Shown in pieces: positions 17,653 to 46,215 of a DNA stretch of 64,000 nt (its first letter is position 1; each line of letters starts with the position of its first letter). The notes beneath the pieces were generated by a model. The model made no database searches. It worked only from the letters and a program-made list of their open reading frames with translations, and had not been told where the DNA came from. Origin of the DNA: Thermoanaerobaculia bacterium (GTDB taxonomy: Bacteria; Acidobacteriota; Thermoanaerobaculia; Gp7-AA8); contig JADGNZ010000013.1 in assembly GCA_017883205.1 (NCBI GenBank), positions 1-64,000 on the forward strand. The letters are read 5' to 3'. The translations under genes and the position numbers were made by a program.

Positions 17653-17883
17653 TCCTGTTCACGGGTTCCGACTTCCCGTTGACGTGATCTGATCTCACGT
17701 TCATGTGATCCGGTTTCCCATTCACGCATTCCCGTTTACCGTTCACGGATTCCCGTTTACTGTTCACGGATTCCCGTTTACCGTTCACGGTTTCCGGTTT
17801 ACCGTTCATGGATTCCTATTTACCGTTCACGGTTTCCGGTTTACCGTTCATGGATTCCGGTTTACCGTTAACGGATTCTCATT
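17653..17883. repeat. 21-bp tandem repeat array, 11 units
   Basis: Eleven consecutive 21-base units with consensus close to taccgttcacggattcccgtt, more diverged at the left end. The period is a multiple of three and several frames stay open (seven-residue repeats such as VNGKRES on the minus strand), but no start or domain supports translation. Together with the palindrome at 17580-17639 it fills most of the gene-free stretch 17460-18011. Confidence 0.9.
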
Positions 17884-18011: not shown

Positions 18012-18392
18012 TCACTGTGATGTCGACTGGGACGTCGACGCCGTCTGCGGCCGAGGGGGCGAATAGCCGAACAGGATGCCGGTCTCGACGTCGACGGCCT
18101 TCCCGTTCTGCTGATACGGTCTGAACCTCCACTGGAAGAGAGCATCCGTGATGACCTTGGCCTGGTCCTGAAACGCGCTGATGACATGAACGTGCTTCAC
18201 CTTGCCATCTGTGCCGATGATGACGCGGACGGGGATGGAATTGAACTTGCGGTCGTTGATTACGGGCTCGACCTTGCTGATCATGTTCTGCTCCGCGTAG
18301 CCAGCCACGCACGTCACCCCGCTCGCTTCCTGCGTCTTTTTACAGGGCCGCGCGCAACGTCCCCAGCTTCTGCACGAACCTCGCGGGCTCAT
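18012..18392 (-). CDS. Short TonB C-terminal-like domain protein, start uncertain
   Basis: A 126-residue frame whose last 80 residues resemble a TonB C-terminal domain: ISKVEPV, then IPVRVIIGTDGKVKHVHV, then ALFQWRFRPYQQNGKAVDV. It has no membrane helix or proline-rich linker, so it cannot be a complete TonB. The longest start (18392) overlaps the upstream cytochrome stop by 53 bases; an internal ATG at 18284 is the smallest plausible start. It follows the penta-haem cytochrome and may be its last operon member, or it may be a remnant of a larger gene. The role is unknown. Confidence 0.5.
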   Translation of the reverse strand: MSPRGSCRSWGRCARPCKKTQEASGVTCVAGYAEQNMISKVEPVINDRKFNSIPVRVIIGTDGKVKHVHVISAFQDQAKVITDALFQWRFRPYQQNGKAVDVETGILFGYSPPRPQTASTSQSTSQ

Positions 18393-19701
18393 AGCGCTCG
18401 CGGTTCTGGATCTCGGCGAAGAGGGCGTCGATCGCTTCGGTCATTGGGCTCTTGAGCAGTTTCGGGTTGCTGCGCGTCAGGGCGGAGGCGAGGCTTTGCA
18501 GGGCCAGGGCGGTCTGTTCGGCGGAGTGGACGTCGGAGGTGAGGATGAAATCGGTGTCGCCGGCGATCGTGCGCATCAGCGTGCGGACGTCGTCGTCGCG
18601 CCAGCTCAGTGAGGCGATCTGCGGCGTAACGCCATCGATGACGTGGCGGGCTTCGACGGCGGTCTGGAAAACGCCATTGGAGTCGTTCATGTGACCGACG
18701 CGCGTGGCGATGATCGCCACGTCGTTGTCAAGCTGCGCGCGCGCCGAGGGGTTGGCGCGGCCGACGAGGAGGCGGAGGACGGCCCAGTGCTGCGGACTCC
18801 ACGCGGGAAGTCCGGCCCGGCCGGGCCAGCCACGCTCCTGGCGCCATCCGCTCCCTTCGAGCGAGTGATGGCAGTTGATGCAGCTCATGTCGGAAAACTC
18901 GGGCCACTTCTCGCCGCGCGCGTGACGGGCGAGATTGTCGAGCGACTGGCTGAATGCCACAGCCTGACCGACGGCGAATGCGCGCGCGCCATGCGTTTCG
19001 GCGGTGACCGTGTCCTTGCCGCGGCGCCAGTGCGGCGGCATCGTCTCGGTGTAGTTGTCGAGCTCGAAGGCGAGGATGGGATGGCCGGAGGCGATCAGCT
19101 CGTGATCGACTTCCTTCTTGTCGTTGCCGAGGTGGCAGGAGAGACAGCCGGAGGCGCGGGTGGGAACGTTGCGGAGATCGATCATGCCGCGCGCGACTGA
19201 CTGTTCGTGCGTCCAGCCGGCCATCGTGTGCTCGGCGCGCCAGCCGCTGGCGGGACCGTGGCAGGCTTCGCATTGCACGCCGTCTTCGGGATCGACTTTG
19301 CCGGAGACTATCCGCGCGGGAACGTTCGTCGAGTGGCAATCGAGGCAGACGGTTTCCTGGTAGGCCTTCCCTTTGAGCCGCATGTTGCGGGCGACGCGCG
19401 CGGAGCGCTCGCTGAAGAGGACGTTGTACGCCTGCGCGTGGCGATCGCTGCTCAGCCAGGTGTAGTACTCGTTCTGCAGGACGCGCGCGGCGTTGAGCGG
19501 CTGCGTCGAGCCGTGACAGCCGGAGTTGGCGCAGGAAGCGACGCCGTCGAAGTGGCCGGGGACGGATGGCGGCGTGGCAGGTGCGGTTGCCGCGGGAGGA
19601 GGAGGGGGTTGCGGAGTTGCTGGCTTGCTCGGTTGCTGGGCGATCCCTGCGACAGCGACGGCCGTTAGCGCGAAGAAGATCATCGTTCGTTTCATCGTCA
19701 T
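18340..19701 (-). CDS. Penta-haem c-type cytochrome, cytochrome c554-like
   Basis: A 453-residue exported cytochrome. A signal peptide (MTMKRTMIFFALTAVAVAGIAQ) is followed by a proline-rich linker. Haem sites are one unusual CX4CH (CANSGCH) and four CxxCH (CLDCH, CEACH, CLSCH, CINCH), with further histidines as likely distal ligands. The layout recalls the cytochrome c554/NapC-NirT-associated family. Its ATG at 19701 overlaps the stop of the decahaem gene (TGATG), so it is translated with that gene. A role in periplasmic or outer-surface electron transfer is inferred from the operon. The long upstream open frame beyond 19701 is a shadow. Confidence 0.9.
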   Translation of the reverse strand: MTMKRTMIFFALTAVAVAGIAQQPSKPATPQPPPPPAATAPATPPSVPGHFDGVASCANSGCHGSTQPLNAARVLQNEYYTWLSSDRHAQAYNVLFSERSARVARNMRLKGKAYQETVCLDCHSTNVPARIVSGKVDPEDGVQCEACHGPASGWRAEHTMAGWTHEQSVARGMIDLRNVPTRASGCLSCHLGNDKKEVDHELIASGHPILAFELDNYTETMPPHWRRGKDTVTAETHGARAFAVGQAVAFSQSLDNLARHARGEKWPEFSDMSCINCHHSLEGSGWRQERGWPGRAGLPAWSPQHWAVLRLLVGRANPSARAQLDNDVAIIATRVGHMNDSNGVFQTAVEARHVIDGVTPQIASLSWRDDDVRTLMRTIAGDTDFILTSDVHSAEQTALALQSLASALTRSNPKLLKSPMTEAIDALFAEIQNRERYEPARFVQKLGTLRAAL

Positions 19702-22700
19702 CACCTCGTGACCGGCTTCGTACCCGGCGTCTCGCTGACGGTGTAGAGACGGCCGTCGCGGAGGTAGAGCCGCTGCATTTCCAGGAGCGTCATCGGACGG
19801 GCGCCGATGCGGTTGAAGATCGAGACCTGATTGCCGCCTTCGTCGACAGCGCGGTCGCGGTCGAGGCCTTTCGACACCGCGAGTGCCGGCCCGTGCGTAT
19901 GGCGCACGGCCACGAGACGCGGCGCCGGCTCCGGACTGAAGCCGGCGTAACCCGGCGTCCACTCGGGCGACAGAAGCTGGTAGACCTTCAGGCCGTACTT
20001 GCCATCGGCGACGTACGCAAAGGTCGATGCATTCGTCGACGCCACTTTCACATCGTTCGCGTCGTGGGAAAGATCGTCGTGCCACGGCAGAACCGCGGGC
20101 TTTTCCGGGCGCTCGACGTCGACGATGACCATTCCTTGTGCACCATCGCCGACGTATGCGTACGTGCGCGCGACGTAGACGCTGCGAGCGTCGGGAATCG
20201 CGACGTGACCTGCCACGCGTGGGTGCGAAGGGTCGGTGATGTCGACGGTCGACAAACCGTCGCGCGTGGTCACGAAGGCGTAGCGGAACTGCACCGCGAT
20301 GCCTGTGGCATCTTTCAATTCGGGAACCGTGGCGACGATCCGCGGCGTGAGCGGCTTGTCGACATCGATGATGACGAGCCCACCCTCGGCACCGACGAAC
20401 ACCCATCGCCCGGCCACGTAGATCGACCGCGCTCCGTTCAACGCGCCGCCGGGGTTGAAGGTCACGGCGCGCGTCAGGAAGTTGTTCGACGGATTGGCGT
20501 CGGCCAGCGTCGTAACGTCGATGAGGATGAGTCCCTCTTCGCGGTCGGCGACGTAGACGTACTTGTAGAGCGGATGGATCGGCTGCTCCTGGTTCTCCGG
20601 AATGGACTGCGTCTGGCGGTTCGGATCCACCGGCATCGTCGTCGGCAACGCCACCGCCGACGCGAACTTCGTCTTCACGAAGGTGCGCTGCCCGATCGGA
20701 GAAACAGGCGCGGAGACAATCCGCTCAGAGAAGTCTTTGTTGTCGATGTTGGCGATGTCGTAGACGCTGAAGCCTTCTTCGCCGTTCGCGCTGTAGATGA
20801 ACTCCCCGCGCATCTGCAGCGAGCGCGAGTCTCCATGGTGCTCGTGCGCCTCTTGCAGCTCCATCTTGTTCTGCTGATGCTTCGCGTAGTAGTCGGGATA
20901 AACGATCTTGTGCAGCGACGAGCCGATCACCGCCTGCGGCTCATCCCACTCGGTGACGCAGACTCCCTCGAAGCCGCCCTTCCCTTCCGCGACGTAGGCG
21001 TAGCGGCCGACGAAGTTGACGAAGTTCGTTCCCTGCAGCAAAAGCTGCGCGAGCCAGGCGTTGTTGTCGTTCTCTTTCGTGACGTGGCAGCTTCCGCAGC
21101 CCTGCGTTTCGCGCGAACGGACGGTGTGCGGCACGTGGGCGTTGAAGGCCTGACTCGAATATCCAGCCGACGAGATCGGCGGCTGCTGGATGTAGATGCG
21201 ATCTCTCAGAGCATTGGTCGAGCTGATGACGAGCGCCGATGACGAGCGAACCGGAGCGAGGCGATGTCCTTTCGTCGTCCCATTCACGCCGAGCATGAAG
21301 ACGTCGGTGCGGATGACCTGCGGGTTGTACGAAGCGTAGTTCCTCGTCTCGCCGCCTTCGAAGTGATGCACTTCGGTCTTCGCGTTCTGCTCCTGCGGGA
21401 GATGGCAGCCCGAGCACGACGTCATCCACGATGTGTGGCAGGCGTAGCAGGTCATCTTCGCGTCGGCGTGCGCGAGATTGGCGCCTGCCTTGGCGCCCCA
21501 CGAGCCGTCGCGTTGGATCGTCTTCGCGTACGCCGAGCGCTCGTTGTAATGCTCATTGCCCGGCGTGATCGAGTCTTTGACCTGGATCACTTCCCACTGC
21601 ATGCCGGGATTGAGCATCGAGCGCTGGTAGAGCTTTCCGTTGACCCAGATGAAGCGGCGCTGGCCGAAGGGCGTCGTTCCGAGCAGCAGATCGGTGCCGC
21701 CCGGAGGCGCTGCCGGACCCGACGTACGCAAGTTCGTGTACGCATCGACGTTGCCGTGACAGTCCTGGCATTCGATCTCGATGTTGTTGCCGTACTCGGC
21801 GTAGATCTGACCGTTGCCGTGCTCGTCCTGCGAGAAGTGGCAGTCGGCGCAGTGCATCCCCTTCTCGAGGTGGATGTCCTGGAGATGCACGGCCTTCTTG
21901 AATTTCGCGGGATCGTCGAACGCAACGTGCTTCCCGTCGGCGTCGAGCAGATTGCCTTTGTGATCGCGTTTGTAGACGGCCATGAAGTTCCAGCCGTGGC
22001 CGTGATAGTCGGCGAACTGCGTGTTCTTCGCCTGCGAGTTAAGGTCCGTCAGATTCTCGAGGAACTTCTCATCCGACCACAATCCGCGCGGCGCGGCGCC
22101 TTCCGGATTGGCGTCGAGCGATGCGTATCGTTCAGCCTGGGTCGGGTACTTCTGCTTTTTCGGCCAGAGCAGCTCGGCGTCCGATTCGTAGTCCCACATC
22201 GTGTAGCCGAGGTAGGTGTTGACGAAGGAATTGGGCTGGTGCATGTGACACGACATGCACTGGCTCGTCGGCACGGCGCGCGTGAACTGATGGCGCAGCG
22301 GATGCCCCTGCTCATTTTTCGGAATCGACTTATCGCCGGTGATCGAGAGGCCGGTGTTGCCGTACTGTCCGTAGCCGGCGGAGTGCAGCGGATCGCGATC
22401 GTTGGCGTAGACGACGTGACATCCCGTGCACCCAGACGAACGGTAATCGCCGGGATGATCGTTCGTGCCCATGAACGAGAGATGCGGATCGTTGAGGCGC
22501 GTCTTGTTGAGATTAATCAGCGCGGGCGAGATGCGCAATCCGGTGCCGCGGCCGCGGTTGCCGAGGCGGATGTCCGGCCGGCCCGCATCGACCTCGGGAC
22601 TCGGATTGCCGATGTCGGGGAACGAGCTGCTGCCGGAAATGCCGCCGCGCTCGAACGCGCGGAAGTACTCGGCCGGCTGAAAGATTTCCCAGCGCGGCAG

Positions 22701-23390
22701 GGGCACGAGAATCGGCAGCGCGCCTTTCGCGATCTGATCGGGAGTCGGCGGCGTGGCCGGCTTGAGCGACTGCGCGTTGCCCTCGCGGCTGTAGCTCTCG
22801 CCGAGGAGGCCTTGCTTGCGGCTGACGAGACCGTTGGCGTAGCTCACCGCGGCCCAGAAAACCGCGGACGTCGTCATCGTGCTCCGCGGCACGGCATTGA
22901 CCTGACGCTGATGGCAAGCGCCGCACGTTTCCTGCGACACGCGCAAGTCGCCCGGGTTGATGAACTTCACAAACGCCACGGGCTCCCTCAGCAGTGCCGT
23001 GTACGAGCGCTTCGGATTCGCCGACGTCTTCCATATCTCGGGATGCAGCGGCTTGACGTGCGCGGCTTCCTTCGTCCGGGCATTGCCGTCGCCGCCGTGG
23101 CAATCGGTGCAGGCGAGCTTCACCGCGGCCGACGCGTGCATCGGTTCAATCCCGTTATGACAACTCAGGCAGCCTGCGCTCTTCGCGTCGGCTTCGGCCT
23201 GTGTCTGGCGCATGAGCGCTGGCAATTCCGGCGACGACTGCGCGCGGATGACCACCGTCGCTGCCGTGACGACGATCGCTGTCATTCCGAGCGTGGCGAG
23301 AAATCTCCCGCCGAGGAACGCGCTGCGCGTTCGCGAAGAGGATTCTTCAGCGTCGGAATGACCAAGGTTCTTTTCCATTTCGTTTTTCAT
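19701..23390 (-). CDS. Decahaem cytochrome c fused to LVIVD-type repeat domain
   Basis: A 1229-residue exported protein. The N-terminal two thirds contain ten CxxCH sites (CLSCH, CTDCH, CGACH, CTGCH, CMSCH, CADCH, CQDCH, CYACH, CSGCH, CGSCH). The last roughly 430 residues hold repeated segments such as YVADREEGLILIDV, VFVGAEGGLVIIDV, AFVTTRDGLSTVDI and AYVGDGAQGMVIVDV, which match LVIVD repeats and should form a beta-propeller. The propeller could bind a partner or mineral surface. Residues 10-37, including part of the signal helix, are encoded by a palindromic repeat. The gene overlaps both neighbours by one base (TGATG). It is a likely outer-surface terminal cytochrome; location and electron acceptor are not proven. 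Confidence 0.92.
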   Translation of the reverse strand: MKNEMEKNLGHSDAEESSSRTRSAFLGGRFLATLGMTAIVVTAATVVIRAQSSPELPALMRQTQAEADAKSAGCLSCHNGIEPMHASAAVKLACTDCHGGDGNARTKEAAHVKPLHPEIWKTSANPKRSYTALLREPVAFVKFINPGDLRVSQETCGACHQRQVNAVPRSTMTTSAVFWAAVSYANGLVSRKQGLLGESYSREGNAQSLKPATPPTPDQIAKGALPILVPLPRWEIFQPAEYFRAFERGGISGSSSFPDIGNPSPEVDAGRPDIRLGNRGRGTGLRISPALINLNKTRLNDPHLSFMGTNDHPGDYRSSGCTGCHVVYANDRDPLHSAGYGQYGNTGLSITGDKSIPKNEQGHPLRHQFTRAVPTSQCMSCHMHQPNSFVNTYLGYTMWDYESDAELLWPKKQKYPTQAERYASLDANPEGAAPRGLWSDEKFLENLTDLNSQAKNTQFADYHGHGWNFMAVYKRDHKGNLLDADGKHVAFDDPAKFKKAVHLQDIHLEKGMHCADCHFSQDEHGNGQIYAEYGNNIEIECQDCHGNVDAYTNLRTSGPAAPPGGTDLLLGTTPFGQRRFIWVNGKLYQRSMLNPGMQWEVIQVKDSITPGNEHYNERSAYAKTIQRDGSWGAKAGANLAHADAKMTCYACHTSWMTSCSGCHLPQEQNAKTEVHHFEGGETRNYASYNPQVIRTDVFMLGVNGTTKGHRLAPVRSSSALVISSTNALRDRIYIQQPPISSAGYSSQAFNAHVPHTVRSRETQGCGSCHVTKENDNNAWLAQLLLQGTNFVNFVGRYAYVAEGKGGFEGVCVTEWDEPQAVIGSSLHKIVYPDYYAKHQQNKMELQEAHEHHGDSRSLQMRGEFIYSANGEEGFSVYDIANIDNKDFSERIVSAPVSPIGQRTFVKTKFASAVALPTTMPVDPNRQTQSIPENQEQPIHPLYKYVYVADREEGLILIDVTTLADANPSNNFLTRAVTFNPGGALNGARSIYVAGRWVFVGAEGGLVIIDVDKPLTPRIVATVPELKDATGIAVQFRYAFVTTRDGLSTVDITDPSHPRVAGHVAIPDARSVYVARTYAYVGDGAQGMVIVDVERPEKPAVLPWHDDLSHDANDVKVASTNASTFAYVADGKYGLKVYQLLSPEWTPGYAGFSPEPAPRLVAVRHTHGPALAVSKGLDRDRAVDEGGNQVSIFNRIGARPMTLLEMQRLYLRDGRLYTVSETPGTKPVTR
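23281..23362. repeat. GTCATTCCGAG...TCGGAATGAC palindromic repeat within a signal region
   Basis: The element begins gtcattccgagcgtggcgag and ends tcggaatgac, with inner palindromes. It lies entirely inside the start of the decahaem cytochrome gene and encodes residues 10-37. A relative lies inside the glycosyltransferase at 9795-9876. Confidence 0.8.
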
Positions 23391-25471
23391 CAGAAGGTCA
23401 GAATCACATTCGTGAAGACGTGAACGAGCGGACGGTCTCTCTCATAAATGTCTTTGAATCCTCGGCCCGGCAAAAACAGCGCCGAGCCACCGACGATGAC
23501 GACGTTCTGATTCAGGAGCGGGCGGTAGCGAAGTCCGATCGAGAGGTCGGTGCCGAGCTCTTTGTGGATGTTGCCCTGAAAGAGAATCGCTTCGACCGAT
23601 TGCACCGCATCGAAGCGGATGTAGTTGCCGGTGAAGATCGCTTTCAGGCGCGGCGTGACATCGACGTCGAGGCCCGCGCTCGCGATCTGAACTCCAGGAT
23701 TGACATACTGCGGCTGTCCCTCATCCTTCGAACTGCGCAGGCTGGTCAGCAGCGAACCGCGCTCGACGAGCGCGACGCCGGTGCCCGCGAGCCGAATGCC
23801 GAGTCGATTGAAGAAGGAGAATCCGCCGCCTGCGAAGTTGGGACTGTCGAAGATCGCGTCGAAGCCGGTGGCCTTGCGGTCGCGCGGGCTGCGGTCGCCC
23901 GATGCGTAGAAGAACGCCAGCCGAGGACGGATCCAGTCGCGGTCGTAGGAGACTTCGAGCGCTGCGCTGCCAGCTCCGATCCTGACACCGTTTCCGTCTT
24001 TGAGGCGCGGATCGGGCCCGGCGATCGGATTGAGATCGTCGTGACCGAAGACGTAGTAGACGGCGTGATCGACATTGAAACGGCCGATGTGGCCAAGTCC
24101 TGATTCGCCGAGGTACGTTGCGCGAATCTCGTGCGGCGTGAAGACGCCGACCGGCGCAGGTCGCACGAGGATGCCGTTGCGGTCGTAGTGGAACGTCGCC
24201 TCATCGCGAACGTAGTGGACGCTGAACTGCTGCGTGTAGCCGTGGACGAGGAAGTCCTGCAGATAGATGTTCGCGATCGCGACCTGCTGATCGCGAAGCT
24301 GCATCGTGTTCAGGCCCGAGTTGGTGTCTTTCTCCAACCGGTCGAAGACGGCCACGTTGTACTGATAGCGATTCGAGGCGAAGTTGCCGAAGACGCGGGC
24401 GCCGAGGTTCGTATCGTTGAAGATGAAGCCGCGGAAGTCGCTGTTGAACGGCTGCGAACCGACACGGATCGAGATGAAGTCGTAGTTCGGCGAGACGTCC
24501 TTGAGCTTGCGCTCGTAGAAAAACTCCTGCAGTGAGAGCGCGCCGTCGGTGCGCGACGTGCCGCGAGTAACGTCAGGCTTGACCAGCCCGTTCTCGCGAA
24601 GGTGAACGTAGTTCAGATTGCCGATCAGCGTGGCCTTGAAGCGCTGCATGATCGGCTTGAACGCCGTGTCGCCCTGGAAGAGATCGAACGAGGCGATGAG
24701 GTTCTCGTTGAAGAGGTTCTGGTTGTCCTTTCCGAACACCGTGATCGACGTCGGCTTGACCGCGCTGACTCCGGATGGCGTCGGCAACGTTCGCGACTCC
24801 GCGAGCGTGTCGCTGATTCCGGTGAAGTCGAAGAACCAGTCTTTGCCGAAGATCGGCAGGTCGCCTTTGATGAGGTTCTGGTTGTACGGGTCGAGCGTCG
24901 CGCCGTTCTTGCCGATGGCGCGAGCCTTTGCCTTCTCGGTGAGCTCGTACGGCGGCGGCGCGATCCTCCAGCGATCCGTCATCTCCTGATACGCCTCGGG
25001 ATGCGGAATCTCCGGTGTGCCGTAGCGCAGCACCGGCTCGATGATCGGCTGCCGCTGCACGTTGCCGGGAAGCTGCACGCGCAGGAGTTGCGTCGCCGTG
25101 ACGCCACCGGATGTTGCTGTGATCGTCCACGTACCAGTCTTCACCGGCGGAGTCCAGATCAGCGTCCAATGTCCGGTCGTGTCGGCGGTGGTTTGTCCGT
25201 TGCCCGATTTCTCAATTGCGATTGCGATCACGGCGCCGGGCGCCGACGTTCCCGTCAGCATGAACGGCACGCCCTCGGCGTAGACCGGTTGGTCGTCGTT
25301 GATGGTGATGGTGTTTGCGGGTTGCGCGAATGCGGATGTGGCGAGTAGCGCCAAAGCAACGAAGAAAAACGAAGCGAAACGTAGGTCGGACTCTCTAGTC
25401 CGACCAATCGCGCCATGGAGTCGGACTGGAGAGTCCGACCTACGTTTCCTTCCGGCGTCGTTTACGGACAC
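23390..25471 (-). CDS. Outer-membrane beta-barrel protein with N-terminal Ig-like domain
   Basis: A 693-residue protein. After a signal peptide core (FFFVALALLATSAFAQ) comes an Ig-like domain of about 90 residues (APGAVIAIAIEKSGNG; TGTWTITATSGGVTA). A long barrel-type region of alternating aromatic strands follows, ending in FTNVILTF with the terminal Phe of outer-membrane proteins. The start is assigned to GTG at 25471: GGAGG lies six bases upstream and no ATG, and no other GTG, follows it in frame before the signal peptide. The GTG overlaps the end of the upstream gene by ten bases. The resulting long N-region (residues 10-31) is encoded by a palindromic repeat. Beside two multihaem cytochromes, it could be the porin of a porin-cytochrome conduit; this is inference. 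Confidence 0.82.
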   Translation of the reverse strand: MSVNDAGRKRRSDSPVRLHGAIGRTRESDLRFASFFFVALALLATSAFAQPANTITINDDQPVYAEGVPFMLTGTSAPGAVIAIAIEKSGNGQTTADTTGHWTLIWTPPVKTGTWTITATSGGVTATQLLRVQLPGNVQRQPIIEPVLRYGTPEIPHPEAYQEMTDRWRIAPPPYELTEKAKARAIGKNGATLDPYNQNLIKGDLPIFGKDWFFDFTGISDTLAESRTLPTPSGVSAVKPTSITVFGKDNQNLFNENLIASFDLFQGDTAFKPIMQRFKATLIGNLNYVHLRENGLVKPDVTRGTSRTDGALSLQEFFYERKLKDVSPNYDFISIRVGSQPFNSDFRGFIFNDTNLGARVFGNFASNRYQYNVAVFDRLEKDTNSGLNTMQLRDQQVAIANIYLQDFLVHGYTQQFSVHYVRDEATFHYDRNGILVRPAPVGVFTPHEIRATYLGESGLGHIGRFNVDHAVYYVFGHDDLNPIAGPDPRLKDGNGVRIGAGSAALEVSYDRDWIRPRLAFFYASGDRSPRDRKATGFDAIFDSPNFAGGGFSFFNRLGIRLAGTGVALVERGSLLTSLRSSKDEGQPQYVNPGVQIASAGLDVDVTPRLKAIFTGNYIRFDAVQSVEAILFQGNIHKELGTDLSIGLRYRPLLNQNVVIVGGSALFLPGRGFKDIYERDRPLVHVFTNVILTF
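25381..25443. repeat. GTAGGTCGGACT palindromic repeat within a signal region
   Basis: Arms at 25381-25404 and 25420-25443 match in 23 of 24 positions around a 15-base loop. Given the GTG start at 25471, it is translated as residues 10-31 of the barrel protein. It sits right after the stop codon of the upstream gene. Confidence 0.9.
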
Positions 25472-27285
25472 GGTTTGCCTCCGCACTCGGTGACACCTTC
25501 GGGGCTTCGCGGGAACTTGAACATGGGAAGCCGTGCGTCGTTGATCTTGAGCTGATCGGCCCACTTGTCGGTTGGCGGCAGGAATTCGCCGGCGCCGAGG
25601 TAGGTGACGTAGTCGTCTTGTTCGATGCCGTCGCCGCTGACGCCGAGTCCGCCGACGAGCTTGCCGTTCTGCACGAGCGGCGTCGCGCCGCCGAAGAACG
25701 TGATGCCGTTCTGATTGTCGTTCGGCGCCTGCGACCCCTGGCTGCACGGCTTGGCGATGTTCGGCAGGAACAACGTCGCGTACCACGGTCCCGGTTTTGG
25801 ATCGAACACGCTCGAGTCGATTCCGGGCGGATAGAACGGCTGCGCGCCGAATCCGAGCGTTCGCGTCGTGACCCAGTAGCCGGCAGGAATGCCGGGCAGA
25901 TCGTTGCGCACGTTTGGATCACTGCTGTTGAAGTAGACGACGTTGCGCGCCTTGGCTGGAACGACATCGACGGCGTCGAAGAGCGCGTCGGGCATCCGGT
26001 AGTGCGCGAGCAGCGTGCCGTCGAGATCGGCGACGGAGATGACCATGCGCGAGTAGCTGCTGAGCGGCAGCCGCACCTGCGCACGCGTCTTCTTCGATGC
26101 CGCGACGGAACGTTGGACGATGGCATCGACCTGCGCGGCGGTCAGTCCGCCCGGGAATGAGCTGGCGTTCGGACCGACGAGATATCCGTGCGGCGGGCAG
26201 CCGCCGTTGAACGGGCCGTAAACGAACGTTCCGCCTGTGAATCCAACAGCGGAACCGGGCGATGTGCCCGTCAACTGCTGCAGCCCGACCGGCAGTCCAT
26301 CGGTGTTGAATCGCAGCTTCTGATCCGGCCCGATGAACGGCAGGCGGATCCCGTCGATGAAGACGTTCTGCGGATCCGGCAGCGGATAGTTCGGCAGCGG
26401 GATGATCGGTGCGACGCCGGCGTTGAGTGGCCCGAACGCGCCGGTGACCGCGGCGAACTCGTCAAGCTGCGAATCGCCGGGAATGCCGGCAACGCCGATG
26501 GCGCCGAGAAGCTTGCCGGTTCTGGCGATGCCCTGCTTGACCGCGCTGACGTCGAGGATGCGGTAGAGAGGAATGCCGCCCGCGTCGATAGGACGGTTAT
26601 CCACTTCCTGCGGGTACGGCGGATCGTCAGGCAGAATTTTCCCGGTGACGAGGCCGGGCCCGCAGCCGGATCGGTCGGTTGCCGGGCACGGTTTCGGAGC
26701 GCCGGTGAACGAGGCGAACTGCCCGATCGATTTCGCCCGCGGAATGCACTGGTTGGTGTTCCAGAGAGCGTTGAGCCCGCATCCGCGGTTGGATTGCTCG
26801 ATGCCGTACAGCGCGCCGACCGGTGCGTTGACGACGCCCGGTGGAAAGTGAACCTGCGCAATCGTGCGCACGGTGCGCGACGAGAGCGGCGCCTGACTGT
26901 TGCTGAAGAACGCGGCGGTGCGGGCGACGCCGAGGGCGACGTCATCGTTGGCCGGGTTGGCGTTGGCCTGGCGGAACAGCGCCACCGGACGGCCGGTGCG
27001 GTCGACGATCGCAATCGTCGCGGTGTCGCCGGCGAGCGCCGTCGCCGCCGCCTGCACGATTGCAGTCGCTTCGGCCTTCGACATCGCGCTGAACGATTCG
27101 GGCGTGCCGCTGCCGACCGTACCGTCGGTGCAGACATCGGGAACAGCGGCGGTCAGAGGGATGGCGCACGAGGGAGGATCGGGCACCGTCGCCAGCACAT
27201 TCGCGCGCCTTCCCGGAGTGCGGCCCTGCGCAAGGCACACGGTGGCGGCCGAAAAAATGAGGATTGATGTGACGCTCGGACGCAT
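25462..27285 (-). CDS. Secreted two-domain GlcG/HbpS-like protein
   Basis: A 607-residue exported protein with two copies of the GlcG/HbpS (DUF336) fold. The first copy includes MSKAEATAIVQAAATAL and TIAIVDRTGRPVALFRQ; the second includes LTAAQVDAIVQRSVAAS and VISVADLDGTLLAHYRMPDA, with NGKLVGGLGVSGDGIEQDD near the end. HbpS-type proteins bind haem, and some sense redox stress. Eight or more cysteines suggest disulfides in the periplasm. The start at 27285 is chosen for the strong GGGAGGGAG upstream and an immediate signal peptide (MRPSVTSILIFSAATVCLAQ). Position in a multihaem-cytochrome operon suggests a haem-handling or redox role; this is not demonstrated. Confidence 0.83.
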   Translation of the reverse strand: MRPSVTSILIFSAATVCLAQGRTPGRRANVLATVPDPPSCAIPLTAAVPDVCTDGTVGSGTPESFSAMSKAEATAIVQAAATALAGDTATIAIVDRTGRPVALFRQANANPANDDVALGVARTAAFFSNSQAPLSSRTVRTIAQVHFPPGVVNAPVGALYGIEQSNRGCGLNALWNTNQCIPRAKSIGQFASFTGAPKPCPATDRSGCGPGLVTGKILPDDPPYPQEVDNRPIDAGGIPLYRILDVSAVKQGIARTGKLLGAIGVAGIPGDSQLDEFAAVTGAFGPLNAGVAPIIPLPNYPLPDPQNVFIDGIRLPFIGPDQKLRFNTDGLPVGLQQLTGTSPGSAVGFTGGTFVYGPFNGGCPPHGYLVGPNASSFPGGLTAAQVDAIVQRSVAASKKTRAQVRLPLSSYSRMVISVADLDGTLLAHYRMPDALFDAVDVVPAKARNVVYFNSSDPNVRNDLPGIPAGYWVTTRTLGFGAQPFYPPGIDSSVFDPKPGPWYATLFLPNIAKPCSQGSQAPNDNQNGITFFGGATPLVQNGKLVGGLGVSGDGIEQDDYVTYLGAGEFLPPTDKWADQLKINDARLPMFKFPRSPEGVTECGGKPCP

Positions 27286-27308
27286 CCGCGGTCTCCCTCC
27301 CCTTTCCG

Positions 27309-29549
27309 TCAAATCTGATACACGAACGTTGCAGCGTTGTCGGCAAGCACGAGGATATCGCCTCGCTTGAGCTGGTGCTCCGTGATCCGTTCACCGCCGG
27401 CCTTCCCGAGGAAGGTACCGTTGGTCGAATTCTGATCGATGGCCATTACCTTACCATCACGCGGGATGATTCGAATATGACGTTTTGATATCCGCTTGTC
27501 GGGAATGGCCACTTGTGAGAGCGCTGGGTCACGGCCTATATAAAGACCGCTTTCCTCAATAATGAAACGCTGACCCTCGAGCACGCCGCTCGTGCATTGA
27601 ATCAACCCATACCACTGCACCATGACCGTCGCTCCGCCCTCGGCCTGCTGCGTTGGCCTGGGCGCCATGCTCGTCGCATCGTTGTCCGGTTTCGGCGCAG
27701 GTGCTGGCGGCGCTGGAGCCGCAGCCGCCTCGGCGGGCTGCAACGGCGGAATCTTCGCAGAAGGACCTTCACGTGGCGCGGCGCCGCGCACTCCGGCTGC
27801 ACGGTCGAGCTCCCCGGCTCTGATTCGTTGAACGAGCGCCAGTCCTGCCGGCACGAGAACGACCAGCAACAGCAGAACAATCGCCCAAAGAAGTACGGTG
27901 TTCAGCATCCCCGCTCCGCCTCCCAAGACATTCACGCGTAACGCCCGCTGTTTGAACGCAGGCGCCATCTTCGTCAACAACAGTCTCGAACGCTCATGAT
28001 ACTCATGACACGTCGCGCAGCTACTGGATGATTTCGCTGACGGTCCGCCGTGGCATCCCGTGCAGTCCTTACGCGACGGCATGAGTACGTCTGCAGTTTT
28101 CGTGCTCTGGCGCGCTTTCTCGTGACATGACTCACACGCGAGATTGCGATGCTCTGTGTGCGAGAACTTCGCGTGCAACAGCCAGCGGGCCGGAATCTCG
28201 GGCGGCTTTGCCGCGATGCGCGTTCCGGCACGCTCGATGACGTGGCACTTGCTGCACTTCGTCTTGATGACCTGCTCGGCGTTGAGGACGGCGCGCTCGT
28301 CGGGAGCGACCGGCGGCCGTGAGGTCAGGATGCGGCGGATCTCATCCGGGCTCTTGCCGACGATGTCGCGATTGCCCGCGTAGGTGGCCAGGACGAAGCC
28401 ATAGACCAGCCCCGGATCGCCGCCGTGCGGCACCTCGACGTCGGGAAAGCGCGGATCGAAGGTCAGCTTGTGGCAGCGCTGGCAGGCGTCGCGGAACTTG
28501 AGAGCGACAGGATCAGCCTTCCCTTTCGTCTCGACCAGCTTGTGGCACTGAACGCACTGCAGTTCTTCGCGCCGCCCTTCACCGTTGAAGATCCCGCCGG
28601 CCTTGAGGTGCAGCGCATGATTGAAACGCAGCGTGTCGGGATCGCTGCGCGGTGAAAAGTCGGGATGCTGTCCGCCGAACGACGTGATCTCGAGCAAATC
28701 CTTCGGTCTCGTCGCGAACAGCGCCGGATCCTTCACGTGCGCGAGCAGATTGCGATGGCACGTCGAGCAGGTTGCGTCCGCCGAGGCCGCGAGCTTGGCC
28801 ACGTCGCGATGCTCCGAATGGCAGTCGGCACACGCCGGCACGCCGGTCTGCTGCTCGGCGTGCGGCAGCTTTCCGTGACATTCGGTGCAACTGGCATCGG
28901 AAACGCCACGCCACGGATCGTGACACGCGCGGCAGTTCTTCGCGATCGGCTCGCCACTGGCGTCTTTTGCGCGCGCATGCGCGGACGACACGCCGCCCGG
29001 CATGAACGCTGTCTGCTTCTCCGGTTTCGTGACTTCCGCAACGACGAGGAAGGCGATGATGAGAAGGATCGCAACCAACGACCGTTTCGTCAGCCATGCG
29101 CGTTTGAGACGGAAGGCATCGACATAATCGACCTTCGGCGCTTTGAGCACGCCGCCTCGCGCGCTGCCAGCACCCGGCGTTGCCACGGACTCTTCCTCGT
29201 CGAAGGCCGCTCCGGCGGCTGCCGCGGTCGAGCTGATCCGGAGAAACAACGGCTTGCCGGGCTCGAGCACCTGCACTTCGATGCGCAGGTCGCCGATCTC
29301 GATCACGTCGGAGCGCGACAACCGTGCCGTCTCAACGGGACGCCTGTTGACGTAGGTGCCGGTGATGCTCCCCTTGTCCGTGATCGTAAAACCGGTGGCA
29401 TCGCCCTCGATAACGGCGTGCTCCAGCGCGACGGCGGGATTCTCCGAGCGCAGCTCCGCATTCGTCCCGCGTCCGATGCGGAGCAACTTGCCCCGCACCT
29501 GCGTCAGGGCCAGCCCGCGGCCCGAAGCGCGCTGGATGACGAAACTCAT
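27309..29549 (-). CDS. FHA - decahaem cytochrome c - FHA membrane protein
   Basis: A 746-residue protein. Residues 1-95 form an FHA domain (IGRG at 25-28; GSITGTYVNRR at 60-70). A transmembrane helix lies at 157-173. Residues 206-515 hold ten CxxCH sites (CRACH, CTECH, CADCH, CSTCH, CVQCH, CQRCH, CSKCH, CESCH, CTGCH, CATCH). A second helix spans 548-574. A proline-alanine linker follows, then a second FHA domain at about 655-746 (YIGRDPAL, ISKRHIRI, NSTNGTFLG). Haems must attach in the periplasm, so both FHA domains should lie in the cytosol and could read a phosphothreonine signal. The start at 29549 opens the first FHA strand directly. A Ser/Thr kinase and another FHA protein are nearby upstream. 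The fusion looks rare. Confidence 0.92.
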   Translation of the reverse strand: MSFVIQRASGRGLALTQVRGKLLRIGRGTNAELRSENPAVALEHAVIEGDATGFTITDKGSITGTYVNRRPVETARLSRSDVIEIGDLRIEVQVLEPGKPLFLRISSTAAAAGAAFDEEESVATPGAGSARGGVLKAPKVDYVDAFRLKRAWLTKRSLVAILLIIAFLVVAEVTKPEKQTAFMPGGVSSAHARAKDASGEPIAKNCRACHDPWRGVSDASCTECHGKLPHAEQQTGVPACADCHSEHRDVAKLAASADATCSTCHRNLLAHVKDPALFATRPKDLLEITSFGGQHPDFSPRSDPDTLRFNHALHLKAGGIFNGEGRREELQCVQCHKLVETKGKADPVALKFRDACQRCHKLTFDPRFPDVEVPHGGDPGLVYGFVLATYAGNRDIVGKSPDEIRRILTSRPPVAPDERAVLNAEQVIKTKCSKCHVIERAGTRIAAKPPEIPARWLLHAKFSHTEHRNLACESCHEKARQSTKTADVLMPSRKDCTGCHGGPSAKSSSSCATCHEYHERSRLLLTKMAPAFKQRALRVNVLGGGAGMLNTVLLWAIVLLLLVVLVPAGLALVQRIRAGELDRAAGVRGAAPREGPSAKIPPLQPAEAAAAPAPPAPAPKPDNDATSMAPRPTQQAEGGATVMVQWYGLIQCTSGVLEGQRFIIEESGLYIGRDPALSQVAIPDKRISKRHIRIIPRDGKVMAIDQNSTNGTFLGKAGGERITEHQLKRGDILVLADNAATFVYQI

Positions 29550-29589
29550 CGGAGGGCTCCCGCGAGCACACGCGCCTCTTCGCGACAAT

Positions 29590-29655
29590 TTGGATGGCGG
29601 CGGGACGCCGCCAGGCCAGCCGCCGAGACGGCGGCGCTCCGGCGCTTCGCGCCAC
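29590..29655. repeat. GC-rich palindromic repeat
   Basis: A GC-rich stretch (ggcggcgggacgccgcc, ccgccgagacggcggcgctcc) between the membrane b-type protein and the FHA-cytochrome genes. It resembles the elements at 3486-3545 and 42425-42495 and fills most of the 106-base gap. Confidence 0.5.
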
Positions 29656-30501
29656 TCACCACGAAATCCTCCCGTAATAGAACACCGCGACGACATGCAC
29701 GATCGCGAACAGCAGCAGCAGGATCGTGAACGGGATGTGGATGTAGAGCCAGAACTCGAGGATGTTCTTGTAGCGCTGTTGATAGATGAGGCGGATCAGC
29801 AGCTCTTTGCGCTGGCGCGAGGCGACGAGAAGTTGACGAAGCTCCTCCTGCTCGTCTTTCTGGACGAGGCCGAGCAGGTTGGCCCAGTCCGCCGTCTGCG
29901 CTTTCCCGCGGCGCATGCGCGCGATCAGCAATCGCCATCCTGCCAGCCATCCCGGCGCAGCCTCGCGAATGAGCTGGTCGTAAATGCGCTGAAATGGCGC
30001 CGATTTCCCCGAGGCGATGCGCGCCATCTGTTTGCCCTGTTGATTGAGCTGATCGGAAATCTCCCCAACCGTCAGGTTCGATTCCACCTCGGTCAACAAA
30101 CGCGGCACGGTGACATAAAGAATCGCGCCCAGGATCCCGCTCAAGACGACAATGGCGACCAGAATCAGCGTCGCCACGGCCACTTTGTCGTGAAAGCGTC
30201 CGCCGGTGTGGAAGACCAGGATGATCAGCACGAGGATGCCGAGGTAGATATGAGACTGCATCCATTGCTCGACCGTGCCGAACGTCGAGCGATACCAGCG
30301 CTTGCGAATGCCGAAGAACGCCAGGAGGAAGCAGAGAAAAAAGCCCGCAATCCCGTAGATCAACCCCATGCGCGAGCCGCCGTGCGGGTACTCGCGCTGC
30401 GCGTACCAGATGAACGACGCCGTCGCGGCGATCAACAGTACGAAGAAGATGCGGCGCCAGAGAACGCCGGAGCGGGCTATGGGCATGCGCGCCCGCCCCA
30501 A
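29656..30501 (-). CDS. Membrane di-haem b-type protein
   Basis: A 281-residue integral membrane protein with about five helices. Two helices carry histidine pairs spaced by 14 residues: H84-H98 and H255-H269. That spacing is typical of bis-histidine b haems stacked across a membrane, so it could pass electrons between a cytosolic donor and periplasmic cytochromes. Between helices four and five is a charged cytosolic segment of about 120 residues. It lies between the gene for the Fe-S flavoprotein upstream and the FHA-cytochrome gene downstream, which supports that role. The start may be the ATG at 30501 or the one at 30486. Haem binding is inferred from spacing only. Confidence 0.78.
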   Translation of the reverse strand: MGRARMPIARSGVLWRRIFFVLLIAATASFIWYAQREYPHGGSRMGLIYGIAGFFLCFLLAFFGIRKRWYRSTFGTVEQWMQSHIYLGILVLIILVFHTGGRFHDKVAVATLILVAIVVLSGILGAILYVTVPRLLTEVESNLTVGEISDQLNQQGKQMARIASGKSAPFQRIYDQLIREAAPGWLAGWRLLIARMRRGKAQTADWANLLGLVQKDEQEELRQLLVASRQRKELLIRLIYQQRYKNILEFWLYIHIPFTILLLLFAIVHVVAVFYYGRISW

Positions 30502-30507
30502 CGGATC

Positions 30508-30593
30508 AGGGAGTCGGGAGTCGGGAGTCGGGGGTCGGAGAATGGCGTCCGATGCCAGTCTTCGACCCCCGACCCCCGACTCCCGACTCCCGA
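30508..30593. repeat. GGGAGTCGGGAGTCGGG inverted repeat
   Basis: G-rich arm at 30508-30538 (repeated gggagtc units) and complementary C-rich arm at 30564-30593. Several runs of three or more G could also form a quadruplex. Related strings occur at 45326-45382, 46356-46388, 53371-53401 and 53502-53520. It separates the first two genes of the electron-transfer operon. Confidence 0.75.
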
Positions 30594-30612
30594 ATCATTC
30601 AACATTGCACAC

Positions 30613-32991
30613 TCACCTCTCGCCTCTCGTAATCACCAGCTCCTCGAGGGTCGACCGATACTCCTCCGGCGTCAGACGAATCGCGGCTCCCGTCGGGCAA
30701 CTGCGCACGCACGCCGGGCCGCCTTTGATCTCGCGGCAGAGGTCGCACTTTACGGCCACCGTCTGCTCGACCTCATTGTGAGATTCTTTGCCGAAGAGCG
30801 AGGCCACCCACGAGAAGATCGTCTTCTTCGGTTCCTTATGAATCATGAAGATGTTGCCGTAGGGACAATTGCGCTCGCAGTTGCCGCAGCCGATGCAATT
30901 GCTCTTGATGTACACCTCGCCTCGGGGATCGCGGACGATGGCGTCGGGGGGGCAGTCGAGCATGCACATCGGGTTCTCGCACTGCCAGCAGGAATTCGGC
31001 GCCAGCAGGTTGTAGAACTTGATGCCCGTCAATGACAGACGCGCCTGTCCGTCGCGATGCACGCCTTCGCATCCGGCGATGCAGTTGCCGCAACGGATGC
31101 ATTTGTGCTCGTCGATGATGAGCGTCTGCGTCCCCATCACCACTTCTTCGCGGATCAGATCGCCGAGGATGTTGCCGGAGCCGGGGGTAGCATCGGCGAT
31201 GAGGCTGGAGATGCGGCGCTCTTCGAGTTTTTGCAGCGGAGCCTCGCGCAATTCCGGATGCGCGCTGAGGAAATTGTTGAAGTCGCGTTTGGACAGCTTG
31301 ATGAGATCGGAGGGAAAGATCGTCGTGACTGTGGCCGTCCGGTCGGCGTCCGAAAAGAGCGCCGCTTCGCCGAAGAAATTGCCGGCCACGAGATACGAAA
31401 GGACGACCTCTTTCTCGCCCGACTTCTTGGAGATCTTCACCATGCCGTTGCGGATCAGATAGAAGGCATCGGCCGGATCATCCTCCTTGAAGACCACGGC
31501 ATCTTTGGCTAGGTTATTGACGACCGCCAGTTCCACCAGCTCGCCGAGCTGCGCCTCAGGGATGCCCGGAAAGAGATAGCCGCCGAACGCGCGGAGCAAG
31601 AATGCCTGATCGACCAGCGCTTTCGCGCGCGGCGCAGCGCCGAGGAGTTTGAGGATCGCTTTGCGCGGGATCTCGATGATGCGCGTCGGCCCGATCGCGC
31701 GCGCCGTCGCGGTGCGGCGGCGGCCGGAGATGAGGCTCATCTCTCCGAAGAAGTTCCCTGCCGTCAGCTCGACAATCTTCACCTCGGCAGGCGCTTTCTC
31801 CGGCTTCTTCCAGAGCTCGACACGACCGTCGGCGATGATGAGGAAGTCGTTCGTGTAGTCGTTCTGGCGAATGATGATCTCGCCGTTCGCATACTCGCGA
31901 ACGCGCGCCGAAAGGAACGTTTCGCGCAGTTGCTGCTCGTCCGCGGCGGCCAGCAGAGGAACGCGTTTCCGCAGGAAGGCGATGCGCTCGCGCACCGTCC
32001 CTTCCCAGTACGGCAGGCGCTCCTTGAGCACCGCCTCATCGGCCGGCTCGACCTCGCGCCCCATCAGATGCTCGACGACCTCGTAGCCCTGATTCATGCC
32101 GAGCTTGATGAGATCGCGCCCGCTCGCGGCACCGATCAGAAAGAGCCCCGGCACGCTCGACTCGTGAACCTGGCTGAGGATGGGCCGCGAGTCTTTTCCC
32201 TGTCCGCTGTAGGTGATGCCGATCGATTCGAAGAACTTGCGCGGCGCGTCGGCGCCGAGCTTGAGGAAGATCAGTTCCGCCGCGACGCGCGTCACGTCAC
32301 CGCGCACGGTCAGGTCGGCATAGCCCGGATAGACCTGCTTCACGCTGGCGTTGAAGTAGATCGTCATCTGCCCGGTGGCCTGGCGGCTCAGCACTTCTTT
32401 GATCAGGACGTCGTTGGCGCGCGTGATCTCGGCGCCGCGCACGATGAGACCGACGCGATTCTCGTCGGCGAGCGCGATGGCGATCTCCAGCGCGGAGTCG
32501 CCCGCGCCGACGACGAGGAGATCCTGATCGCGGTGCTCGGCCGGGTCGACGAGGCGGTAACGGACGTGCGGCAGATCCTCGCCCGGCACGCCGAGCTTGC
32601 GCGGATTGCCTTGCGTTCCCATCGCCAGAATGACATTGGCGGCATCGAATTCGTCGCCCTTCGCCGTCTTGACCTTGAACCGCGATCCCTCCTTCTTCAC
32701 CGAGCGCACCTCGGCGTTGAAGAGAACGTTGAGCTTCTTCTCGCTCACGTGTCCGCCCCACGCCGCCAGAATCGATTCGCGCGATCCCGCCTGGAACGGC
32801 ACCTCCCCCCGCGCCGGGATCAGCATCGGCTCGGCCATGACGTACTTGCGGGCCTGGTACGCGTCGATCGTGTCGGCGAGATGGTCGGTGCGCTCGAGCA
32901 GCGCGTAGGAGAGTCCGTTGGTCCGTGCGTGGGAGGCCGCCGCAAGCCCTGCAGGTCCGGAGCCGACGATGATCAGGTCGTGAGAGGTCAT
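30613..32991 (-). CDS. FAD oxidoreductase - two cNMP-binding domains - four [4Fe-4S] fusion
   Basis: A 792-residue cytosolic fusion. Residues 1-315 are a YpdA/thioredoxin-reductase-like flavoprotein with dinucleotide sites GSGPAG (10-15) and VGAGDSA (161-167); no redox CxxC is present. Residues about 345-460 and 470-585 are two cyclic-nucleotide-binding domains (NFFGEMSLISGRRRTATA; NFFGEAALFSDADRTATV). Residues 625-775 hold four cysteine clusters of the HybA/DmsB-type ferredoxin (CIRCGNCIAGC, CWQCENPMCMLDC, CIGCGNCERNC, CDLC...CVRSC). It probably takes electrons from NAD(P)H and passes them to the membrane b-type protein. The cNMP domains suggest allosteric control. The start at 32991 begins the FAD strand; the earlier one at 33042 adds 17 unrelated residues. 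First gene of the operon. Confidence 0.92.
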   Translation of the reverse strand: MTSHDLIIVGSGPAGLAAASHARTNGLSYALLERTDHLADTIDAYQARKYVMAEPMLIPARGEVPFQAGSRESILAAWGGHVSEKKLNVLFNAEVRSVKKEGSRFKVKTAKGDEFDAANVILAMGTQGNPRKLGVPGEDLPHVRYRLVDPAEHRDQDLLVVGAGDSALEIAIALADENRVGLIVRGAEITRANDVLIKEVLSRQATGQMTIYFNASVKQVYPGYADLTVRGDVTRVAAELIFLKLGADAPRKFFESIGITYSGQGKDSRPILSQVHESSVPGLFLIGAASGRDLIKLGMNQGYEVVEHLMGREVEPADEAVLKERLPYWEGTVRERIAFLRKRVPLLAAADEQQLRETFLSARVREYANGEIIIRQNDYTNDFLIIADGRVELWKKPEKAPAEVKIVELTAGNFFGEMSLISGRRRTATARAIGPTRIIEIPRKAILKLLGAAPRAKALVDQAFLLRAFGGYLFPGIPEAQLGELVELAVVNNLAKDAVVFKEDDPADAFYLIRNGMVKISKKSGEKEVVLSYLVAGNFFGEAALFSDADRTATVTTIFPSDLIKLSKRDFNNFLSAHPELREAPLQKLEERRISSLIADATPGSGNILGDLIREEVVMGTQTLIIDEHKCIRCGNCIAGCEGVHRDGQARLSLTGIKFYNLLAPNSCWQCENPMCMLDCPPDAIVRDPRGEVYIKSNCIGCGNCERNCPYGNIFMIHKEPKKTIFSWVASLFGKESHNEVEQTVAVKCDLCREIKGGPACVRSCPTGAAIRLTPEEYRSTLEELVITRGER

Positions 32992-33118: not shown

Positions 33119-33403
33119 TCAGTAGCGGACATCGTCCACCGTCTCGAAGATTCGCGCTTTTGGCTCGTTCATCACTTTGCCTTCCGCGTTTCGCCAGACG
33201 CCCTTGAGAACCTCGAGGAAAGCCTGCGCTCTCGCAGGTTCGTCAAACTCGAGATCTACGATGGCGTAGTTGGTGTCGTCGACAGGCCGGAGAACACGAT
33301 AGGAGCGAACACCACCAGCCTGCCGGCGCGCGGGGTCGCGATCGAACGCGTTCTTCCAACGCTCAAAATCAGGAACCGGATGCTCAATTCGCAACGTCGT
33401 CAC
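33119..33403 (-). CDS. Small conserved protein, possible dimeric alpha-beta barrel fold
   Basis: A 94-residue protein with the pattern of ferredoxin-like or ABM-type small proteins: HPVPDFERWKNAFDRDP, then YRVLRPVDDTNYAIVDLEFD, then a helix and a final strand. Its ATG overlaps the stop of the upstream DUF4388-FHA gene by four bases, so the two are coupled. No catalytic motif is visible. The function is unknown. Confidence 0.7.
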   Translation of the reverse strand: MTTLRIEHPVPDFERWKNAFDRDPARRQAGGVRSYRVLRPVDDTNYAIVDLEFDEPARAQAFLEVLKGVWRNAEGKVMNEPKARIFETVDDVRY

Positions 33404-45504: not shown

Positions 45505-46215
45505 TGTGTCGTCGCGTTTACCCGGCGTGTTGCCGTGTTCATGCGCCGCGCTGTCGCGTTCACACGCCGTGTTGCCGTGTTCACCCGGGGATGTTGTCGC
45601 GTTCATCAGCCATGCTGTCGCGTTTGTCCGGCGTGGTGTCGCGTTTATCCGGCGTGATGACGCGTTCGTCCGGCCTGCTGTCGCGTTCATTGGCCCCCGC
45701 TGTCGCGTTCATCCGCTCCGCTGTCGCGTTCATCCGCTCCGCTGTCGCGTTCATCCGCTCCGCTGTCGCGTTCATCCGCTCCGCTGTCGCGTTCATCCGC
45801 CCCGCTGTCGCGTTCATCCGCCCCGCCGTCGCGTTCATCCGCCCCGCTGTCGCGTTCATCCGCCCCGCTGTCGCGTTCATCCGCCCCGCTGTCGCGTTCG
45901 TCCGGCCTGCTGTCGCGTTCGTCCGGCCTGCTGCCGTGTTCATCAGCCCCGCTCTCACGCTCATCCGGCCTGCTGTCGCGTTCGTCCGGCCTGCTGTCCC
46001 GTTAATCAGCCCCGCTGTCGCGTTCATGCGGCCTACTGTCGCGTTTATCCGCCGTGCTGTCGCGTTTTCTACCTCGAAAATCGCGCTCATCCGCCGTGTT
46101 GTCGCGTTTTTCCGCCGAAAATCGTGTTCATCCGGCGTGTTGTCGCGTTTTTCGGCGGGGAAATCACGTTTATCCGCCGAAAATCGTGTTTGTCCGCAGG
46201 ACTGTCGCGATCAGC
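45505..46215. repeat. 21-bp tandem repeat array, over 30 units
   Basis: More than thirty units with a 21-base period (a few are 22), consensus close to tgtcgcgttcatccgccccgc. Units at 45700-45900 are almost identical; the edges are diverged. Several frames are open through it, but no start, domain or biased composition favours translation. It fills most of the gene-free stretch 45322-46387; the remaining 46216-46355 holds nothing recognised. Confidence 0.92.

Follow-up and report, generated by a model that had tools for sequence, protein, structure and literature searches.

A conserved seven-gene locus predicted to encode an NAD(P)H-linked electron conduit across the envelope of a Thermoanaerobaculia bacterium

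Results

Organization of the locus

The window analysed here is a stretch of 64,000 nucleotides from a Thermoanaerobaculia bacterium (contig JADGNZ010000013.1). Positions 18340–32991 hold seven genes, A to G in order of transcription (from 32991 down to 18340). A sequence-only reading had placed seven genes there, and all are present, on the minus strand. Their predicted products, with the evidence for each, are as follows.

A, 30613..32991, minus strand: cytosolic FAD pyridine-nucleotide oxidoreductase with two cNMP domains and a ferredoxin domain (Pfam, motifs, hydropathy)
B, 29656..30486, minus strand: five-TM di-haem b protein (hydropathy, motifs)
C, 27309..29549, minus strand: decahaem protein of the order FHA-TM-decahaem-TM-FHA (Pfam, hydropathy, motif count)
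D, 25462..27285, minus strand: exported protein with two HbpS/GlcG (PF03928) domains (Pfam, co-occurrence with F)
E, 23390..25471, minus strand: outer-membrane barrel with an N-terminal Ig-like domain (AF2 model, co-occurrence with F)
F, 19701..23390, minus strand: exported decahaem c protein with a C-terminal LVIVD beta-propeller (Pfam, motif count, AF2)
G, 18340..19701, minus strand: exported cytochrome c554-like protein with four CXXCH sites and one CX4CH site (Pfam, motifs)

Genes E and F overlap by one base, as do F and G. Either GTG at 25471 or TTG at 25354 could be the start codon of E, B has an alternative upstream start (TTG at 30501), and the start of C at 29549 differs from the first ATG of its open reading frame. 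The export signals of D, E, F and G are signal-peptide-like hydrophobic stretches read from the N-termini by hydropathy. The domain labels proposed earlier are borne out by Pfam for A, C, D, F and G, and by hydropathy and histidine pairs for B. Likewise, the earlier count of 25 haem c sites is correct if the CX4CH site of G is included, the other 24 being CXXCH (10 in C, 10 in F and 4 in G). Neither E nor B matches a Pfam family at gathering level, and among the NCBIfam matches listed none is above cut-off for any of the seven proteins.

Several features lie between or beside the genes. An inverted repeat of 46 nt, 87% complementary and built of GGGAGTC units, separates A and B (30504–30596); its element GGGAGTCGGGAGTCGGG has 42 copies in the genome against 0 in a reversed control, which marks it as a dispersed repeat. 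Tandem arrays with periods of about 21–24 bases, one of them with 25 copies, occur at 2540–2779, 17709–17878, 45537–46197 and 54570–54732, and the array at 17.7 kb sits just downstream of G. A small open reading frame (18012–18392, minus strand) overlaps the end of G in another frame; it matches TonB_C weakly (9.8e-6), lacks an evident export signal, and looks like a remnant. Directly upstream of A, a gene for a DUF4388 and FHA protein (33400–34566, minus strand) is possibly part of an FHA-based control, and matches of the DUF4388/FHA type are also found near A in close relatives (loci L034–L036 and L038).

The cytosolic and inner-membrane proteins and the cytochrome G

The Pfam domains of A comprise Pyr_redox, two cNMP domains and a 4Fe-4S domain. 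The FAD part is of the YpdA/thioredoxin-reductase type, with GxGxxG motifs at residues 10 and 162, and the nearest NCBIfam model, at a score below its cut-off, is YpdA. Four 4Fe-4S sets of four cysteines, between C631 and C765, are 96–100% conserved in 51 sequences, and the protein matches Fer4_11 (PF13247) at 1.1e-7. By hydropathy, A has neither a signal nor a TM helix.

Five hydrophobic helices are apparent in the hydropathy profile of B, which contains the motif WX3HX13H twice (W75/H79/H93 and W246/H250/H264) together with SGXXG. The four histidines, in two HX13H pairs, are invariant in 41 of 41 sequences; in a set of 26 homologues, both full motifs are kept in 25, and SGXXG also in 25. Many members of the family weakly match cytochrome b561/ferric reductase families.

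In C, Pfam identifies two FHA domains and cytochrome c7/c3 segments. The haem region is flanked by two predicted TM helices (157–175 and 552–570), and because the helices bracket this region, both FHA domains would be cytosolic. Besides its ten CXXCH motifs, C has exactly ten other histidines, all invariant or near-invariant in 51 sequences. The C profile matches chain A of 6r2q (E 3.4e-9) over a short stretch only; we take 6r2q to be an MtrCAB entry, and the table of matches names the molecule otherwise.

The sequence-only reading named the signalling domains as a difference from porin-cytochrome conduits. They are not an oddity of this locus: every A homologue scanned has cNMP domains, and of 33 C homologues 16 have FHA domains, a count on which we rejected the view that the latter are peculiar to the locus. 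The cNMP domains of A and the FHA domains of C probably gate electron entry on the cytosolic side.

The Pfam family of G is cytochrome c554. Its CX4CH site reads CANSGCH, and this site and the four CXXCH sites are kept in nearly all homologues.

The outer module

D matches the HbpS-like family (PF03928) in two stretches, at 90.4 bits against a gathering score of 25. Its nearest solved relatives include EfgA, NahX and the extracellular haem-binding HbpS, which makes the binding of a ligand or of haem plausible for D.

The AF2 model of E (pLDDT 79.5) consists of an N-terminal Ig-like domain and 18 strands. An outer-membrane barrel usually ends in Phe or Tyr, and a C-terminal Phe or Tyr is present in 29 of 29 E homologues. 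A sequence search of solved structures with E gave no match. By structure, the model aligns with AlgE at Z of about 27–28 over 358–367 residues (rmsd 3.0–3.3, 14–15% identity), the best match having Z 27.9 and rmsd 3.0 over 358 aligned residues, and OprD-type barrels are matched as well, at ≤15% identity. The Alginate_exp family is matched, weakly, by only one of 29 E homologues, and no alginate genes were noticed in the cluster.

F combines LVIVD repeats with c3/c7 segments in Pfam. The propeller is confidently predicted by AF2 and the haem domain with low confidence; the Foldseek matches of the model are generic propellers and were set aside. In a sequence search of solved structures, F resembled octahaem nitrite reductase over a short stretch and nothing else. 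F contains ten CXXCH motifs and exactly ten other histidines, all invariant. The histidine complements of F and C (ten in motifs and ten others in each), and the four invariant histidines of B, are what would be expected of bis-His electron-transfer haems.

Conservation of the seven genes

F is present in a single copy in the source genome; across the phylum, 32 of the 297 genomes sampled have it. E was found in 31 of the 297, every one of them also with F, and in the sole genome with F but no E, the contig that bears F measures 4.3 kb. D likewise occurs in 31 genomes, 30 of them with F, the remaining one being 75% complete. The probability of such co-occurrence with F by chance is about 3e-41 for E and 1e-37 for D (hypergeometric, phylogeny ignored). 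In several genomes (e.g., G096, G123 and G165), D lies more than 100 kb from F, which points to a link between the two beyond proximity; their co-occurrence even when unlinked led us to reject D as a neighbour by chance. The near-obligate pairing of E with F makes it likelier that E serves F specifically, as a platform or conduit, than that it is a general porin.

When named genomes were scanned with the F alignment, at least 577 relatives were obtained, and the best 80 were kept. These 80 share at least 50% identity over nearly the whole protein, and span Acidobacteriota, Nitrospirota, Binatota, Myxococcota, Ignavibacteriota, and alpha-, beta- and gamma-Proteobacteria. Near F in these 80 loci, many of them on short contigs, E was found in 76, D in 58, G in 55, C in 53, and A and B in 49 each. 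When all open reading frames of the 57 longer loci were clustered without labels, seven families were present in at least 30 loci, and these were exactly A–G; the next family reached 10 of the 57. This supports A–G as one conserved functional unit, with a redox chain from the cytosol to the outer membrane that, as judged from the sequences, is plausibly unbroken.

F is rarer in the Pseudomonadota sample, where it occurs in 6 of 349 genomes (the chosen centre counted), than in the Acidobacteriota sample. It is also carried on plasmids of Sphingobium and Sphingopyxis, and a Sphingobium plasmid with the cluster was typed as conjugative. Culturable carriers include Sphingobium, Limnobacter and Parahaliea. 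In a tree of F (FastTree only), the class of the source organism is separated from other Acidobacteriota and has Nitrospirota and Binatota as neighbours, a placement that suggests inter-phylum transfer. Two records with the cluster are titled Bordetella parapertussis and Klebsiella pneumoniae MAGs (L110 and L142), and are very probably mislabelled environmental bins. In some Acidobacteriota genomes, A-B-C-like genes are located away from E and F, and a fixed complex of A-B-C with E-F does not follow from the conservation.

Gene fusions and exchanged entry modules

The cNMP/Fe-S part is fused with B in one chain in three loci (L061, L151 and L184), and in L150 and L151 an FAD domain is joined to a C-like FHA-multihaem protein. 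The latter fusions (L150, 7351–10674; L151, 5774–8941) are single chains of about 1,060–1,110 residues, and combine FHA, eight haem c sites, Fe-S and a pyridine-nucleotide flavoprotein domain. The entry module is also exchangeable. A YpdA-like FAD module is found in the window and in Proteobacteria; NuoEF-like and NuoG-like Fe-S parts take its place in L145 and L147, and an NADH flavodehydrogenase of the FNR type (NAD/FAD/2Fe-2S) does so in L187 and L191, two clusters that resemble the porin-cytochrome type PCC4. These fusions and exchanged modules argue for A as the site of electron exchange with NAD(P)H, in either direction, and for A-B-C as the route.

In L184/L185, an A-B fusion of about 1,120 residues occurs together with C, with E and F absent nearby; in L184 a chemoreceptor gene lies downstream. 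This is a possible further use of the inner core.

Comparison with known electron conduits

The closest described relative of the locus is PCC4, a putative cluster proposed by He et al. 2017 (PMC5566968) to comprise a porin, 4-, 5- and 10-haem cytochromes, an Fe-S protein and a five-helix protein. The inner-membrane protein of PCC4 has five TM helices, two WX3HX13H motifs and SGXXG; in subgroup II, a PF13247 Fe-S protein is encoded upstream of it; and the cytochromes are three periplasmic ones, with none extracellular (PMC5566968). B has precisely this inner-membrane signature, and A corresponds to the upstream PF13247 protein. The haem complement differs: instead of 4-, 5- and 10-haem cytochromes, the window encodes 10 (C), 10 (F) and 4+1 (G) sites, with no separate 5-haem gene, and because of this difference we do not assign the locus to PCC4.

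Pseudomonadota were searched with B and loci without F were read; two clusters (L187 and L191) were judged PCC4-like by composition. The 4-haem protein of these clusters is a homologue of G, the cNMP/Fe-S protein of A, the b-haem protein of B and the 10-haem protein of C. The clusters have a barrel-like protein of their own and a 5-haem cytochrome, which show no detectable similarity to E or F (the E profile against the barrel of one such locus gives an E-value of 0.36), carry the FNR-type flavoprotein where A has its FAD domain, and do not contain D. The window, in contrast, has a second decahaem protein with a propeller (F), an AlgE-like barrel (E) and an HbpS protein (D). Judged from sequence, the window thus appears to share an inner core with clusters of PCC4 composition, with D-E-F as a different outer module. 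The sequence-only reading noted a likeness to porin-cytochrome conduits without naming PCC4; the kinship with PCC4 concerns the inner core and does not extend to D-E-F. Assignment to PCC3 was rejected, as PCC3 cytochromes have very many haems and low residue-to-haem ratios.

With MtrCAB, MtoAB and PioAB the locus has a general principle in common, i.e., an inner-membrane donor, periplasmic multihaem proteins, an outer-membrane barrel and an exported decahaem cytochrome. The comparison of the barrel with MtrB and PioB that had been proposed earlier gave no family match: at E ≤ 0.1 none of 29 homologues of E matches MtrB_PioB (PF11854), and a match is likewise absent from the genome as a whole. 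MtrB-type chains are also absent among the listed fold matches of E, an absence that by itself excludes nothing. MtoB and PioB are reported to have 24–32 strands, whereas the model of E has 18, and the entry point of MtrCAB is CymA, whereas that of the window is of the NAD(P)H type. The locus is not MtrAB or PioAB, and E is modelled as an 18-strand AlgE-like barrel.

The extHIJKLMNOPQS cluster of Geobacter likewise combines a porin (ExtI) and multihaem cytochromes with a b cytochrome, and the nearest NCBIfam model of F is ExtM (NF040943; E 1.6e-22), at 79.6 bits against a cut-off of 800. Unlike the window, the ext cluster has rhodanese, Rieske and bc-type parts, and it is a more distant analogue than PCC4. 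Among open-access papers searched for biocathode clusters, clusters of Acidobacteria, LVIVD cytochromes and HbpS/GlcG conduits, we found no description of the A–G combination.

Discussion

A proposed path for electrons

Based on the predicted cofactors and the conservation of the locus, we propose, with a probability of about 0.68, that A–G constitute an NAD(P)H-linked electron conduit that is complete in itself and spans the entire envelope. NAD(P)H would reduce the FAD of A in the cytosol. The four 4Fe-4S clusters of A would relay electrons to B in the inner membrane, and its two b haems would pass them to the ten c haems of C, which would be tethered in the inner membrane and face the periplasm. 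From C they would travel by one or both of the exported cytochromes, G and F, located at the outer-membrane protein E, and end on an acceptor outside, perhaps quinones or humics, metal oxides, or a reaction outside the cell that consumes oxygen or peroxide. D would be a near-constant accessory, either binding haem or a ligand or acting as a terminal redox or sensing subunit.

The conserved unit and its plausible redox chain uphold the earlier proposal of a cytosol-to-surface conduit as far as the outer membrane; passage through E to the surface we infer, as we do the order G-F-E, the surface exposure of F, the outward direction and the acceptor. An 18-strand barrel, as modelled, would be narrower than MtrB and might not admit a haem wire.

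The resemblance of E to solute barrels of the AlgE/OprD type leads to the first alternative, which we consider unlikely: E would admit a soluble substrate, and F and G would reduce it with electrons from A-B-C, in the periplasm or at the membrane, with no wire through the outer membrane. ExtM, the nearest named relative of F, fits this picture, since it comes from the ext cluster, whose porin ExtI is tied to selenite/tellurite handling. Every haem of F has a candidate second ligand, however, which leaves no obvious open catalytic haem, and a general porin would not be expected to keep to one partner as E does to F.

The direction of flow in the proposed conduit could also be reversed. He et al. 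2017 (PMC5566968) drew PCC4, which has a homologous core, as a system for inward electron flow, and one homologue of the cluster is from a biocathode Haliea MAG (L085). An extracellular donor (a reduced metal, a mineral or a quinol) would then feed electrons to F/G, and these electrons would travel by C and B as far as A, so that NAD(P)H is formed or quinone supplied in a manner similar to PioAB and MtoAB. Such inward use seems improbable. Haem-copper oxidase genes number three in the source genome, and at least one such oxidase scores above the family cut-off in 34 of the 36 carrier genomes tested. This indicates that most carriers respire; many of them come from heterotroph lineages. Moreover, reduction of NAD(P)+ would be uphill for most donors unless coupled to energy, and the cluster has no coupling subunit. 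As most carriers examined keep haem-copper oxidases, the outward conduit that we favour is probably auxiliary rather than the sole respiratory outlet, and it is more likely an auxiliary outlet or an electron supply for surface chemistry than a means of main respiration.

Similarly doubtful is an exchange of electrons between B and the quinone pool, with A mainly regulatory. B has the b-type inner-membrane signature that was read as quinone-active by He et al. (PMC5566968), but the occurrence of different NAD(P)H-oxidising modules on the same core is hard to square with A as a mere sensor. A chance neighbourhood of cytochromes and an unrelated transporter, finally, which the sequence-only reading had named as the outcome that would refute its proposal, can practically be dismissed: nothing beyond the fold similarity of E to solute porins speaks for it, and it is contradicted by the co-occurrence of E, F and D and by the recurrence of the same seven families around F.

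Implications

The NAD(P)H-linked conduit may be given a more specific form, which we offer as a speculation that is less likely to be right than wrong by a wide measure: a widespread surface redox system of aerobes, powered by NAD(P)H and serving not metal respiration but extracellular oxidative or signalling chemistry, in which A-B-C-G would be an export core with a gate controlled by the cNMP/FHA domains, and D-E-F a module of a new structural type with D as terminal catalyst or sensor.

Extracellular electron transfer has mostly been studied in specialists that breathe metals; here, seven genes recur in ordinary aerobes, and their outer-membrane part is most likely unlike that of the well-studied metal-breathing bacteria. 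The locus is widespread in respiring bacteria, and would represent a known type of conduit in a new combination of parts. This suggests a construction from swappable blocks, where one inner core is combined with varied outer-membrane modules and several modules for NAD(P)H entry. With culturable carriers and a plasmid of the conjugative type, the locus offers a genetically accessible and testable case of electron transfer at the cell surface.
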